Below, piece after piece: positions 44,367 through 49,023 of a stretch of 49,215 nt of DNA. Numbering within the stretch: position 1 is the first letter of the stretch; every line of letters begins with the position of its first letter. A model generated the notes under the pieces. The model did not search any database. It had not been told where the DNA came from and saw only the letters and a list, made by a program, of their open reading frames with translations. The stretch covers positions 1 to 49,215 of the forward strand of contig JACPPM010000286.1 of assembly GCA_016191015.1 (NCBI GenBank), in the 5' to 3' direction. Source of the DNA: Acidobacteriota bacterium (GTDB lineage: Bacteria > Acidobacteriota > CAIWXX01). The translations under genes were made by a program, and so were the position numbers.

Positions 44367-45094
44367 AGCCGACTATCTACGTGCTCGACGATGATCCCGG
44401 CGTTCTCAAGACGGTCCAGAGAACTCTGACGGATGTCACCGATGCCGTGCGTCTCTTCACTGACCCTGTCACGGCGATGCCGGAGATCCTCGCCAACCCA
44501 CCGGATCTCCTCCTGCTCGATCTCAACATGCCGGGCCTCAGCGGGTACGACTGTTGCAGTCAGATCCGGAGGGACCCACGCACCGAAGCTCTGCCGGTCA
44601 TCATGGTGACCGGCATCAACAACCCTGAGGATCGCGTCAAAGGGTTCAGTGTCGGTGCGGATGACTACATCGACAAGCCGTTCTATCCACCCGAGCTCGT
44701 GGCGCGGATCCAGGCCGTCCTGCGCCGTGTGCACGGTGGCGGTGAGCAGAGGATCGTGGCCGGTGAGGTCGAGATCGACCCACGCTCTCACGACGTGTTC
44801 GTGCGCGGAGAACGAGTCGAGCTGACGCTGCGCGAGTTCGAGATTTTGCGGCTGCTTGCCAGCGAACCCGGGCGCACGTTCGAGAGAAACGAAATCCGAG
44901 ATCTGATCAGCCGGCGAAACCCGGATCTCTACGAAATGACGAATGTGGTCGCGATGCACATCATGAACATCAGGAGGAAGATCGAGCGCGATCCGGACGA
45001 TGCTCGACTGATCCTCACGGTCCGCCAGGTCGGCTACAAATTTGCCGTCCAGGCGGCCGGCCGCGGAAAAGGGTCCTCGGAGCGCAGAGCCTAG
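44363..45094 (+). CDS. OmpR-family response regulator without adjacent kinase
   Basis: A 243-residue regulator. Receiver: acidic cluster YVLDDDP, phosphoacceptor Asp53 (LLLLDLNMPG), Thr in MVTGIN and Lys in YIDKPF. DNA-binding winged helix: ELTLREFEILRLLASEPGRTF, IMNIRRKIERDP and TVRQVGYKF. GTG at 44363 is chosen because GAGGAGG lies eight bases before it; it overlaps the cutA stop by four bases. No histidine kinase is in the neighbourhood. Confidence 0.93.
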   Translation: MKPTIYVLDDDPGVLKTVQRTLTDVTDAVRLFTDPVTAMPEILANPPDLLLLDLNMPGLSGYDCCSQIRRDPRTEALPVIMVTGINNPEDRVKGFSVGADDYIDKPFYPPELVARIQAVLRRVHGGGEQRIVAGEVEIDPRSHDVFVRGERVELTLREFEILRLLASEPGRTFERNEIRDLISRRNPDLYEMTNVVAMHIMNIRRKIERDPDDARLILTVRQVGYKFAVQAAGRGKGSSERRA

Positions 45095-45164
45095 TCATGT
45101 GCCGGAGCTCATCTGCCACGACTCGAATGCGGCGTGCGGCTTGGCCGCGTCCCGGCGAGCGACC

Positions 45165-46301
45165 GTGAAGGGGTACTCGACGAAGGCGATTCACGCCGGG
45201 CAGGAGCCTGACCCGACGACCGGCGCGATCATCACTCCGATCTACCAAACGTCGACATATATCCAGGAAGCGGTCGGCGTGCACAAGGGGTACGACTACG
45301 CGCGCACGATCAATCCGACGCGGGTGGCGGTCGAGCGCAACATCGCCGCACTCGAGAACGGAGCCTACGGCCTGGCATTCGCTTCGGGGATGGCTGCGAT
45401 CACGGCGGTCATGAGCCTGCTGAAGTCGGGAGAGCACGTCATCGCATCGCGCAACGTCTACGGCGGCACGTTCCGCCTCTTCGACATGGTCCTCACACGC
45501 CAGGGCCTCTCCTTCACCTGGGTCGATACGTCGGACCTTGCGAGCGTGGCGGACGCGATCAGGCCGCAGACGCGGATGCTCTACGTGGAGACGCCAACCA
45601 ACCCCACGATGGTCCTGACGGATCTCGCCGCGGCGTCGCGACTCGCCCGCGAACGCGACCTCATCCTCGTCGTCGACAATACGTTCATGAGCCCCTATTT
45701 CCAGCGACCGCTGGACCACGGCGCCGCTATCGTCGTGCATTCGACGACGAAGTACCTTAACGGCCACTCCGACAGCATCGGCGGGGCAATCGTCTGCAAC
45801 GAGGCCACCCACTACGAATGGCTCAAGTTCATCCAGAACAGCAGCGGCGCCATCCTCTCGCCCTTCGACAGCTGGCTGCTGCTCCGCGGCACAAAGACAC
45901 TGGCGCTGCGGATGGAGAAGCACAATTCGAACGCGATGATTGTCGCGCAGTTTCTCGCGAAGCACCCGGCGGTGACGAAGGTCAACTATCCCGGGCTGGC
46001 ATCGCACCCGCAGCACGAGCTGGCCGGGAGGCAGGCGAGTGGTTTCGGAGGAATGATCAGCTTCGACGTCGGAGACGGCGCGCGCGCGCGCGAGCTCCTC
46101 AAGACCGTGCGGCTGTGCACGCTGGCTGAGAGCCTCGGCGGCGTCGAGACGCTCATCTGTCATCCGGCGATGATGACTCACGCGATCGTGCCCGCGGAGG
46201 TGCGTGAGGAGCTCGGCATCACCGACGGCCTCGTGCGCCTCAGTGTCGGCTGTGAGGATGCCGAGGACATCGTCGACGACCTCGCGACCGCGCTGGCCTA
46301 G
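45165..46301 (+). CDS. Cystathionine gamma-synthase/lyase family PLP enzyme
   Basis: A protein of about 378 residues of the Cys/Met metabolism PLP family. Family text: STKAIHAGQEPDPTTGAII, SGMAAITAVMSLL, YVETPTNPTM, DNTFMSPYFQ and the PLP lysine in HSTTKYLNGHSD. It could be cystathionine gamma-synthase, a gamma-lyase or a homocysteine synthase; these are not separable by eye. GTG at 45165 gives the usual N-terminus, although its ribosome site is weak and the frame is open to 45042. Confidence 0.93.
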   Translation: MKGYSTKAIHAGQEPDPTTGAIITPIYQTSTYIQEAVGVHKGYDYARTINPTRVAVERNIAALENGAYGLAFASGMAAITAVMSLLKSGEHVIASRNVYGGTFRLFDMVLTRQGLSFTWVDTSDLASVADAIRPQTRMLYVETPTNPTMVLTDLAAASRLARERDLILVVDNTFMSPYFQRPLDHGAAIVVHSTTKYLNGHSDSIGGAIVCNEATHYEWLKFIQNSSGAILSPFDSWLLLRGTKTLALRMEKHNSNAMIVAQFLAKHPAVTKVNYPGLASHPQHELAGRQASGFGGMISFDVGDGARARELLKTVRLCTLAESLGGVETLICHPAMMTHAIVPAEVREELGITDGLVRLSVGCEDAEDIVDDLATALA

Positions 46302-46341: not shown

Positions 46342-46358
46342 ATGTAGTCCCACTACAT
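46342..46358. promoter_or_regulatory. Perfect 7-bp inverted repeat, possible operator
   Basis: ATGTAGT-CCC-ACTACAT lies 65 bases upstream of the -35 box of the ATP-grasp operon. Its size and position suit an operator or a small terminator for the PLP enzyme gene, which ends 40 bases earlier. There is no T-tract. Confidence 0.4.
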
Positions 46359-46422: not shown

Positions 46423-46451
46423 TTGACAAACCTTGAACTCACACCTATATT
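46423..46451 (+). promoter_or_regulatory. Strong sigma70 promoter of the ATP-grasp operon
   Basis: Consensus TTGACA (46423-46428), a 17-base spacer, then TATATT (46446-46451), with an AT-rich tract of seven T just upstream. This is among the best promoters in the window. The leader to the start codon is about 48 bases. Confidence 0.8.
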
Positions 46452-46506
46452 TCAATTGAATACATGGACGCAAGTCCTGGATGGAAGGAGATCGCGGAGA
46501 AAGATT

Positions 46507-47538
46507 ATGCGAGTTGGATTGACCTACAACGTGAAGAAGGATTGCTCGGGCGAGGGAGACGAGCATCCTCCAAGTACGGTCGGCAGCGACGTATACGCTG
46601 AGTGGGACGAACCGGAAACCATCGAGGCGATACGAGCTGCCCTGAGCAGGAAGCACTCCGTCACCCTCATCGAGGCCGACGAGCACGCCTACGACACCCT
46701 CCGAACAACCCCCCCTGACATCGTCTTCAACATCGCCGAAGGCGCCTTTGGCGCGAGCCGTGAGGCGCAGATGCCGGCGATCTTCGAGATGCTTCGCATT
46801 CCCTACACCGGCTCCGACCCGCTCACACTCGCCCTCTGCCTCGACAAAGGCCGCGCGAAGGAGGTCCTCGCTTTCAACGGCGTTCCGACGCCGAGCTTCA
46901 AGGTGTTCACCTACCTCAACGGCAATGGCAACGGCCTGCGCTATCCGATGATCGTGAAGCCGCTCTTCGAGGGCTCCTCGAAGGGGATCTTCAACGACTC
47001 GGTGGTGAATGGCACGAAGGAGTTGCGGTCGAAGGTGCAATGGGTGCTGGACACCTACAAGCAGCCGGCGCTCGTCGAGCGCTATCTGACGGGGCGGGAG
47101 TTCACCGTTGCCCTGGTCGGAAACGGCGACAACATCACCGTTCTCCCGATCGTGGAGATCAAATTCGGCTCACTGCCTGCGGGGGCGACGCCGATTTACT
47201 CATTCGAAGCGAAATGGGTCTGGGACCGCGACGACAAGCCGCTCGACATTTTCGAGTGCCCTGCCCAGCTTGATTCGACAACCCGCGCAAAGATTGAAGC
47301 TATCTGCATCAAGGCGTACCGGGTCCTGCGCTGTCGCGACTGGTGCCGCATCGACGTGCGTCTGGACGGAGAGGGGAATCCGTACGTAATCGAGTTGAAC
47401 CCGCTGCCGGGCATCCTGCCGAAGCCGGAGTCCAACTCATGCTTCCCCAAGGCCGCCCGCGCCGCCGGCATGGACTACGACACGCTGATGAACAGAGTTC
47501 TGGAGGTCGCATGCGAACGTTACGGTATCGCCCCCTGA
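46507..47538 (+). CDS. D-Ala-D-Ala-ligase-like ATP-grasp enzyme 1
   Basis: A 343-residue ATP-grasp ligase. The N-terminal half has VFNIAEG, EMLRIPYTGSDPLTLALCLDKG (the Ddl-type substrate/ATP junction) and YPMIVKPLFEGSSKGI (grasp loop with serine). The metal ligands are in RIDVRLDG and ELNPLPGI. Such enzymes join a carboxyl group to an amine via acyl phosphate. The canonical Ddl HGxxGEDG motif is replaced, and a second paralogue follows, so ordinary D-Ala-D-Ala ligase is unlikely. Start at 46507, with GGAGAAAG upstream. Confidence 0.9.
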   Translation: MRVGLTYNVKKDCSGEGDEHPPSTVGSDVYAEWDEPETIEAIRAALSRKHSVTLIEADEHAYDTLRTTPPDIVFNIAEGAFGASREAQMPAIFEMLRIPYTGSDPLTLALCLDKGRAKEVLAFNGVPTPSFKVFTYLNGNGNGLRYPMIVKPLFEGSSKGIFNDSVVNGTKELRSKVQWVLDTYKQPALVERYLTGREFTVALVGNGDNITVLPIVEIKFGSLPAGATPIYSFEAKWVWDRDDKPLDIFECPAQLDSTTRAKIEAICIKAYRVLRCRDWCRIDVRLDGEGNPYVIELNPLPGILPKPESNSCFPKAARAAGMDYDTLMNRVLEVACERYGIAP

Positions 47539-48587
47539 AGGCGCCCGACTGCGCGATCGTCGCCAACAAGATCGTCATCGAGAAGATGACGGCCGAGGAC
47601 AGGGAGCTGCTTTCCGAGATTGCGGTCCGGGACGAGGTGGAGGCGATCCGGGCGAGCCTCTGCGAGCTGGGATACAATCCCCTGGTCATCGAAGTCTGGG
47701 ATGACGTCTCGGGTCTGCTCGCGACCCTGACCAAGAGAAAGCTCTCTTTCGTCTTCAACCTGTGCGAATCCCTGCAGGGCGATAGCACCCTCGAGATGTG
47801 CGTCCCGTCCATGCTCGAAATGCTCCGCATCCCCTACACCGGCTCCGCGCCGCTCACTCTGGGCCTCGCCCTCCACAAAGGGCGCGCCCGCGAGATCCTT
47901 CACTACTACCGCGTGCCGTATCCGCGGTTCGCAGTGCTCTCGGAGGTGCCGAAAGAGAAGCCGCGCGGCATTCCGTTTCCGATGATTGTGAAGCCGAGCC
48001 GCGAGGATGGGAGCGCGGGGATCACCAAGGATTCCGTGGTGCGGGGATTCGCGCAGCTCAAGGCGCAGGTCGATTATATCCTGCGGAACCACGAACAGCC
48101 GGCGCTGGTCGAGGAGTACATCGAGGGGCGGGAATTCAACGTAGCTGTCCTGGGAGACTCCGACCCGGTCGCGATGCCCGTTTCGGAGATCGATTTCAGC
48201 ACGTTGGATCCGTCGCTGCCCCCTATCGTCTCGTACGACGCCAAGTGGAACGTCAACAGCGCGTACTACCGTGGAACGGTGCCGAAGTGTCCGGCGGAGC
48301 TCGAACCGGCCGTCGAGGAACGGATCCGGCAGACCGCCCTGACGGCATACCGCGCGTTAGGAGTGCGGGATTACGGTCGCGTCGACATCCGGCTCTCGGC
48401 CGAGGGAACTCCGTATGTTCTCGAGGTGAACCCGAATCCGGACATCTCACCGAAGGCCGGACTCGCGCGGGCCGCGGGGGTGGCGGGGATGAGCTACCCC
48501 CAGCTCATCGAGCGGATCGTCGCATTGGCTCTGGCGCGATCGAGTGCCTATGAGTATCAGGAAGCTTCGGCCGTCGGACAGGGGTGA
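47511..48587 (+). CDS. D-Ala-D-Ala-ligase-like ATP-grasp enzyme 2
   Basis: A 358-residue paralogue of the preceding enzyme. It shares SFVFNLCESLQGDS, EMLRIPYTGSAPLTLGLALHKG, FPMIVKPSREDGSAGI, RVDIRLSA and EVNPNPDIS. The start at 47511 follows GGAGG and overlaps gene 1 by 28 bases, indicating tight coupling. The pair probably catalyses two successive ligations or works as a heteromer. It has an extra N-terminal 40 residues before the ligase core compared with gene 1. Substrates are unknown. Confidence 0.9.
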   Translation: MRTLRYRPLKAPDCAIVANKIVIEKMTAEDRELLSEIAVRDEVEAIRASLCELGYNPLVIEVWDDVSGLLATLTKRKLSFVFNLCESLQGDSTLEMCVPSMLEMLRIPYTGSAPLTLGLALHKGRAREILHYYRVPYPRFAVLSEVPKEKPRGIPFPMIVKPSREDGSAGITKDSVVRGFAQLKAQVDYILRNHEQPALVEEYIEGREFNVAVLGDSDPVAMPVSEIDFSTLDPSLPPIVSYDAKWNVNSAYYRGTVPKCPAELEPAVEERIRQTALTAYRALGVRDYGRVDIRLSAEGTPYVLEVNPNPDISPKAGLARAAGVAGMSYPQLIERIVALALARSSAYEYQEASAVGQG

Positions 48588-49023
48588 GATCGAGCGGATC
48601 GTTCGCGAGACCGGCGTCTTCAGCGAGCAGGAGGTCGCGATCGCCCTCGAGCTGCTCGACATCGCCATCACCAACCCTGCCCAGCGCGACTATGAGATCC
48701 ACGTGGCCGAGGACGATTGCGGAGTCCTGGGCTACATCTGCTTTGGGCCCGTCCCGCTGACGCAGGGCGTCTACGATCTGTACTGGATTGCCGTGTCTCC
48801 GGGGGCTCAAGGTAAAGGTGTCGGGAAGCAGCTCGTCGCATTCATGGAGGACGCGCTGGAGGCCCGGCGGGCGAGAAAGGTGATGATCGAGACATCCTCG
48901 ACACCGGTCTACGATCCGACGCGCGCCTTCTACCTGAGGCTCGGCTACCACGAAGCCGCCCGCATCGCCGACTTCTACAAGCCCGGCGATGCAAAAGTGA
49001 TCTACGCCCGAGACCTCGGCTGA
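48550..49023 (+). CDS. GNAT N-acetyltransferase
   Basis: A 157-residue GNAT enzyme. The acetyl-CoA signature LYWIAVSPGAQGKGVGKQL and the C-terminal AFYLRLGYHEAARI are clear. It overlaps the second ligase gene by 38 bases (ATG at 48550; GTG at 48544 is possible), so the three genes are made together. It probably acetylates the amino group of the ligase product or of its precursor. An N-acetylated dipeptide or similar small product is an inference from the gene set. Confidence 0.9.
   Translation: MSIRKLRPSDRGEIERIVRETGVFSEQEVAIALELLDIAITNPAQRDYEIHVAEDDCGVLGYICFGPVPLTQGVYDLYWIAVSPGAQGKGVGKQLVAFMEDALEARRARKVMIETSSTPVYDPTRAFYLRLGYHEAARIADFYKPGDAKVIYARDLG

Follow-up and report, generated by a model that had tools for sequence, protein, structure and literature searches.

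N-acetyl-beta-lysine is a known osmolyte, and the aminomutase gene of its synthesis can be under the control of Na+ and c-di-AMP riboswitches (PMC9337991). The known route consists of a lysine 2,3-aminomutase, AblA, and a GNAT-family acetyltransferase, AblB (PMC4685198; PMC9337991), and N-acetylation makes lysine a neutral zwitterion (PMC4685198). A similar logic is found in the NAGGN "trio", a GNAT/ATP-grasp protein together with an asparagine-synthase-like amidotransferase, where ATP-grasp ligation and GNAT acetylation lead to an acetylated dipeptide solute. The Ddl (PF07478) and Van ligases are the third group of described enzymes with which the locus has to be compared.

By analyzing the gene neighbourhood of related loci we could show that a triplet of two Ddl-fold ATP-grasp ligases (LIG1 and LIG2) and a GNAT acetyltransferase from the acidobacterial genome G000 is three quarters of a conserved gene set, KamA-LIG1-LIG2-GNAT. 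Like AblA/AblB, this set comprises a lysine 2,3-aminomutase (KamA) and a GNAT-family protein, and the KamA of G000 even clears the AblA equivalog cut-off (539 versus 525 bits). It differs from AblA/AblB by the two additional ligases, by a short GNAT (157 aa) which does not match AblB, and by having no linked Na+/solute symporter such as the one present in G016. G016, which lacks the triplet, has a standard AblA-symporter-AblB osmolyte cluster at this locus (L053, 3025–6888), and the triplet is carried by other members of its family. With the NAGGN trio the set shares the combination of an ATP-grasp ligation, here predicted, and a GNAT acetylation, and LIG2 and GNAT are fused in one genome (G500). 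In contrast to the trio, the ligases are of the Ddl type, KamA stands in place of the amidotransferase, and the trio's NCBIfam GNAT (TIGR03103) is not among the listed matches of the triplet GNAT. No published description of the four-gene combination was found in the open-access literature. Thus, the system appears to be undescribed, though each enzyme superfamily and the AblA/AblB theme are known.

Layout of the locus

The window under study has 49,215 nucleotides and is the whole contig C244 of G000. Only 192 bases are visible 3' of the triplet (Table 1) and, as the window is the whole contig, the operon may extend beyond its end. A previous reading of this DNA from the sequence alone had proposed a coupled ATP-grasp/ATP-grasp/GNAT operon whose ligases are not true Ddl, a proposal which is now upheld by the gene overlaps, by a tree of the ligases and by recurrence of the genes in dozens of genomes. 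The overlaps given there are exact: LIG1 and LIG2 share 28 bases (47511–47538) and LIG2 and the GNAT gene 38 bases (48550–48587). Overlaps of the same 28 and 38 bases are found in the nearest relative G001 (L027: 7640–8671, 8644–9720 and 9683–10153), the only genome of the same family encountered in the searches. The promoter ahead of the triplet is indeed near-perfect, with 11 of 12 bases matching in TTGACA-17-TATATT. It is the sole promoter-like match in 3 kb, compared with a mean of 0.5 in shuffled sequence, and in G001 the hexamers and the spacing are identical while the spacer sequence is different. A possible operator is the inverted repeat TGTAGTCCCACTACA further upstream, the core of which, AGTCCCACTA, is also found upstream of LIG1 in G001, partly kept in this comparison of two genomes only. 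The gene directly upstream of LIG1 (45042–46301) codes for a PLP enzyme of the cystathionine gamma-synthase/lyase type; as it was not found beside the triplet in the relatives, we left it out of the system.

Table 1. Features of the triplet locus, in positions of the window
Feature	Position	Strand	Description
Inverted repeat TGTAGTCCCACTACA, possible operator	46343..46357	+	perfect repeat, ~65 bases 5' of the -35 box
Sigma-70-like promoter TTGACA-N17-TATATT	46423..46451	+	hexamers and spacing kept in G001
LIG1	46507..47538	+	343-aa Ddl-fold ATP-grasp ligase, clade separate from Ddl
LIG2	47511..48587	+	358-aa Ddl-fold ATP-grasp ligase, LIG1 paralogue
GNAT N-acetyltransferase	48550..49023	+	157 aa, acetyl-CoA motif QGKGVG, nearest solved relative 2r7h

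Identity of the ligases and of the acetyltransferase

The two ligases had been described as paralogous and Ddl-like, and this holds: LIG1 and LIG2 are 41% identical over 308 columns and both match the C-terminal ATP-grasp domain of Ddl, PF07478 (9.6e-36 and 6.3e-33, respectively). AlphaFold models were obtained with a pLDDT of 86 for LIG1 and 88 for LIG2, and the best 50 PDB matches to these models are of the Ddl type throughout. The catalytic Arg-x-Asp and the metal-binding Glu-x-Asn of Ddl and Van ligases are present in both proteins, the latter as stated before. By fold and by these two motifs LIG1 and LIG2 are ATP-grasp enzymes of the Ddl-type fold, and it is very probable that they carry out amide ligation. 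The grasp serines, which had been reported for both enzymes, are complete in LIG1 (EGSSKG), but LIG2 has only the second one (EDGSAG).

Given the fold and the family similarity, LIG1 and LIG2 could be taken for duplicates of a D-Ala-D-Ala or D-Ala-D-X ligase, such as might serve in cycloserine or glycopeptide resistance. However, LIG1 reaches 155 and LIG2 128 bits against the TIGR01205 cut-off of 245.65 bits, and 187 and 158 bits against the PRK01372 cut-off of 243; both are far under every NCBIfam Ddl/Van cut-off among the matches listed. The genome has its own Ddl elsewhere (contig C101), which exceeds the TIGR01205 cut-off even as a fragment (295 bits). LIG1 and LIG2 are nearly always found as a pair. 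In addition, the Ddl motif HGxxGEDG is gone from both ligases, as noted earlier; EGAFG-ASREAQ is found instead in LIG1 and ESLQGDSTLEMC in LIG2. The ISM/SLxP motif is replaced as well, and the acceptor-carboxylate motif is altered relative to Ddl. The histidine of HGxxGEDG is changed to glutamate in both enzymes, and such a change on the substrate side of Ddl would suit a cationic substrate.

A tree of the ligases had been suggested as a check. It was built from 98 sequences including 13 true Ddl of the same phylum. The 13 Ddl form one group on a long and fully supported branch (SH-aLRT 100, stem 1.57), and LIG1 and LIG2 are placed outside. The LIG1 and the LIG2 proteins each group mostly with their own kind, with weak support for the deep branches between the groups, and the other Ddl-like single homologues of the phylum stand apart from LIG1 and mostly apart from LIG2. 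By scores, loss of HGxxGEDG and tree position we rejected a Ddl or Van identity of LIG1 and LIG2, and a reading as D-Ala-D-Ala, D-Ala-D-X or resistance ligases is highly improbable.

Related ligase domains also occur in other architectures. In G011 (L037, 7566–9569) and G051 (L036) a methyltransferase and a Ddl-like ligase are found in one protein, the domains having been checked for L037. The proteins of L108, L112, L113 and L114 have ~700–770 aa and two Ddl-like ATP-grasp units per chain, and neither kamA nor a triplet-type GNAT gene is adjacent in these loci.

The third open reading frame belongs to the GNAT family according to its profile match. Its closest solved relative is PDB 2r7h (E 3e-31 over 152 residues), which is a GNAT like the triplet protein and is called "putative D-alanine N-acetyltransferase", a structural-genomics name; to our knowledge the function of 2r7h has never been demonstrated. 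Like the ligases, the GNAT reaches no NCBIfam cut-off among the matches listed, and its match to the streptothricin acetyltransferase model is weak (16.5 bits). An identity with AblB was considered and rejected, as TIGR03827 is absent among the listed matches of the triplet GNAT; the AblB of G016, used as control, scores 355 bits.

Linkage to lysine 2,3-aminomutase and spread of the gene set

When the neighbours of related loci were analyzed, a radical-SAM lysine 2,3-aminomutase, KamA, was found beside the triplet. We defined the LIG1 clade at a score of at least 341 bits, the next match being a LIG2 at 284 bits. In this way 64 genomes and one split copy were collected among 396 genomes of the same phylum; the genome search suggested in the sequence-only reading therefore found the triplet again in dozens of genomes. 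Of the 65 LIG1-positive genomes 62 have a KamA scoring ≥250 bits, versus 7 of the 116 LIG1-negative genomes tested in the phylum, counts which overstate independence because the genomes are related. With families as the unit, KamA is found in 17 of 19 versus 2 of 52 (Fisher p ~3e-12); the genome-level Fisher test took 114 of the 116 negatives, with unchanged result. From the coordinates, KamA adjoins LIG1 in 57/65 and the GNAT adjoins the ligases in ~59/65 LIG1-positive genomes. G025 and G340 have no KamA or only a weak one. In G000 the kamA gene is located on a separate contig (C324, 62289–63344) and is for this reason not visible in the window, and KamA and triplet are also on different contigs in G001, G029, G042 and G067.

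Asp293 and Asp330 (2a5h numbering), which bind the side chain of lysine in 2a5h, and the PLP-binding Lys337 are kept in all 31 KamA proteins examined from LIG1 genomes, and CxxxCxxC and Arg134 in 30 of them, the exception being L076 with a masked stretch. This test of the aspartates can fail, as both are lost in G012, whose distant KamA does not belong to the system. The unlinked kamA gene of G000 is preceded by the same promoter hexamers with the same spacing as the triplet, one of 27 exact copies in 6.4 Mb. This is a post hoc observation and no more than suggestive.

The coupling of the four genes and, by model score and residues, the identity of KamA are thus seen from genomics, and gene fusions add to the coupling. 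In G036, for instance, the four genes stand in the order LIG1-LIG2-GNAT-KamA. LIG1 and LIG2 form a single open reading frame in G610, LIG2 and GNAT in G500, and the linker is clean in both cases. Among the flanking genes only one recurs in contact with the module while the other neighbours vary. It codes for an HDAC/acetylpolyamine-amidohydrolase-like protein with a degenerate GNAT-like N-terminus. Three loci have this protein directly beside the module, and a fusion with the GNAT is seen in G371 and, judged by the open frame, in G197; G112 also has such an HDAC-like partner. In full or near-full length it is present in 12 of 65 LIG1-positive versus 0 of 15 LIG1-negative genomes; it was not found in G000. 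The earlier suggestion of two ligations and one acetylation fits these data and is strengthened by the LIG1-LIG2, LIG2-GNAT and HDAC-GNAT fusions.

The complete set of four genes also recurs elsewhere. A Chlamydiota MAG has it in the form of two divergent pairs (L024), L023 from an unclassified bacterium has it too, and so do genomes of the phylum to which a Myxococcales MAG belongs (G402, G500, G599, G630 and G671). In the latter phylum 75 of 80 genomes have KamA (E 1e-30), which is common even without LIG1, so only adjacency of kamA is informative there; a related single ligase adjoins kamA in 17 of 20 genomes checked. In this one-ligase variant the gene order is ligase, kamA and MurJ-family flippase in all seven loci read (L119–L124 and L126, phylum of G398), and the variant could be a separate envelope-related system.

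This MurJ linkage in a second phylum and the Ddl fold of both ligases would agree with a role in the cell envelope, in which the ligases build a beta-lysine peptide that goes into peptidoglycan or into some other exported polymer, just as Ddl makes D-Ala-D-Ala. Nevertheless, we consider such a role of the four-gene set unlikely: the MurJ-linked variants belong to a ligase clade different from LIG1/LIG2, the neighbour analysis revealed no recurrent cell-wall gene beside the four-gene modules, and among the module loci a MurJ-like gene is found only in L028, as a weak match ~5 kb from the operon. Furthermore, N-acetylation would be unexpected for a Ddl-type precursor.

Single homologues occur on plasmids as well. 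On the conjugative plasmid pTHIMO01 of Thioflavicoccus mobilis (L107, 2548–8029) a Ddl-like ligase and kamA are accompanied by genes for 2,3-diaminopropionate and diaminobutyrate. A diaminobutyrate transaminase, SbnA and an ornithine cyclodeaminase-like gene are present, and this locus looks like a diamino-acid peptide cluster. Rhizobial plasmids, symbiotic or other and including pNGR234a (L104–L106), carry single homologues annotated as "ATP-grasp domain-containing protein", near which neither kamA nor a triplet-type GNAT gene was found.

Proposed pathway and product

The earlier reading had predicted an N-acetylated peptide or amino-acid conjugate. This prediction is retained, and with KamA as fourth component it shifts from a generic conjugate to a derivative of beta-lysine. 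Substrates, order of the steps, product and role are inferred as follows. KamA would convert L-lysine into beta-lysine, which is probably a building block of the product. LIG1 and LIG2 would activate carboxylates with ATP as acyl-phosphates, as in Ddl, and each would make a single amide bond, by which beta-lysine would be built into a small peptide or amino-acid conjugate. Acetylation of a free amine by the GNAT would neutralize one positive charge, and the HDAC-like protein of some genomes could take the acetyl group off again. On balance we favour a KamA-LIG1-LIG2-GNAT pathway leading to an N-acetylated beta-lysine peptide or conjugate, most likely an intracellular, reversibly acetylated solute which resembles N-epsilon-acetyl-beta-lysine but is longer.

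A simpler explanation would be that GNAT and KamA make N-acetyl-beta-lysine as AblA/AblB do, aminomutase and acetyltransferase being the known osmolyte route, and that the ligases act elsewhere and are merely co-regulated. This is unlikely, as LIG1 is fused to LIG2 in one genome and LIG2 to the GNAT in another, as AblB is not among the listed matches of the triplet GNAT, and as pairs of one ligase and kamA occur without a triplet-type GNAT. Alternatively, KamA, ligases, GNAT and the optional acetylpolyamine-type deacetylase might produce a toxic cationic beta-lysine peptide, which is masked by the GNAT as in streptothricin resistance and unmasked by the deacetylase; the plasmid pTHIMO01 with its related ligase, kamA and diamino-acid genes could be regarded as a parallel. 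We judge this to be improbable, since beyond the deacetylase no neighbour recurs, and hence neither an exporter nor a regulator or resistance gene is consistently present, and since the wide presence within families resembles core physiology and not a sporadic antibiotic cluster. The weak match of the GNAT to the streptothricin model also speaks against it.

Within the preferred pathway to an N-acetylated beta-lysine peptide or conjugate, a compatible solute is the role we prefer for the product, because acetyl-beta-lysine is a known osmolyte, acetylation gives a neutral zwitterion, and the neighbour analysis found no exporter that is consistently linked to the modules. We hold this assignment with less than even confidence. 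An Rfam search of the operon vicinity and of 27 related loci revealed no Na+ or c-di-AMP riboswitch and no other relevant RNA element, and this lack of an osmotic riboswitch counts against a solute role, as does the lack of a consistently linked transporter. Of the products proposed earlier, an osmolyte stays plausible, no support was found for a metallophore, and a cell-wall precursor is backed only indirectly, by the related system of the myxococcal phylum. In a broader and likewise tentative view, the genes may constitute a primary pathway of several phyla, in which two Ddl-fold ligases would make an N-acetylated beta-lysine oligopeptide serving as compatible solute or as storage or signal peptide, with reversible acetylation by the GNAT/HDAC-like pair in some lineages.

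In annotations such genes appear one at a time, as "D-alanine--D-alanine ligase", "ATP-grasp", "GNAT" or "KamA family protein", and they are unconnected in the searchable literature. The linkage of KamA, ligases and GNAT joins proteins with uninformative names in a single testable pathway, which predicts a new class of beta-amino-acid peptides made without NRPS. It also cautions that ligases of the LIG1/LIG2 type should not be taken for cell-wall or vancomycin-resistance genes. Should the product prove to be an osmolyte, the short list of lysine-derived compatible solutes would grow.
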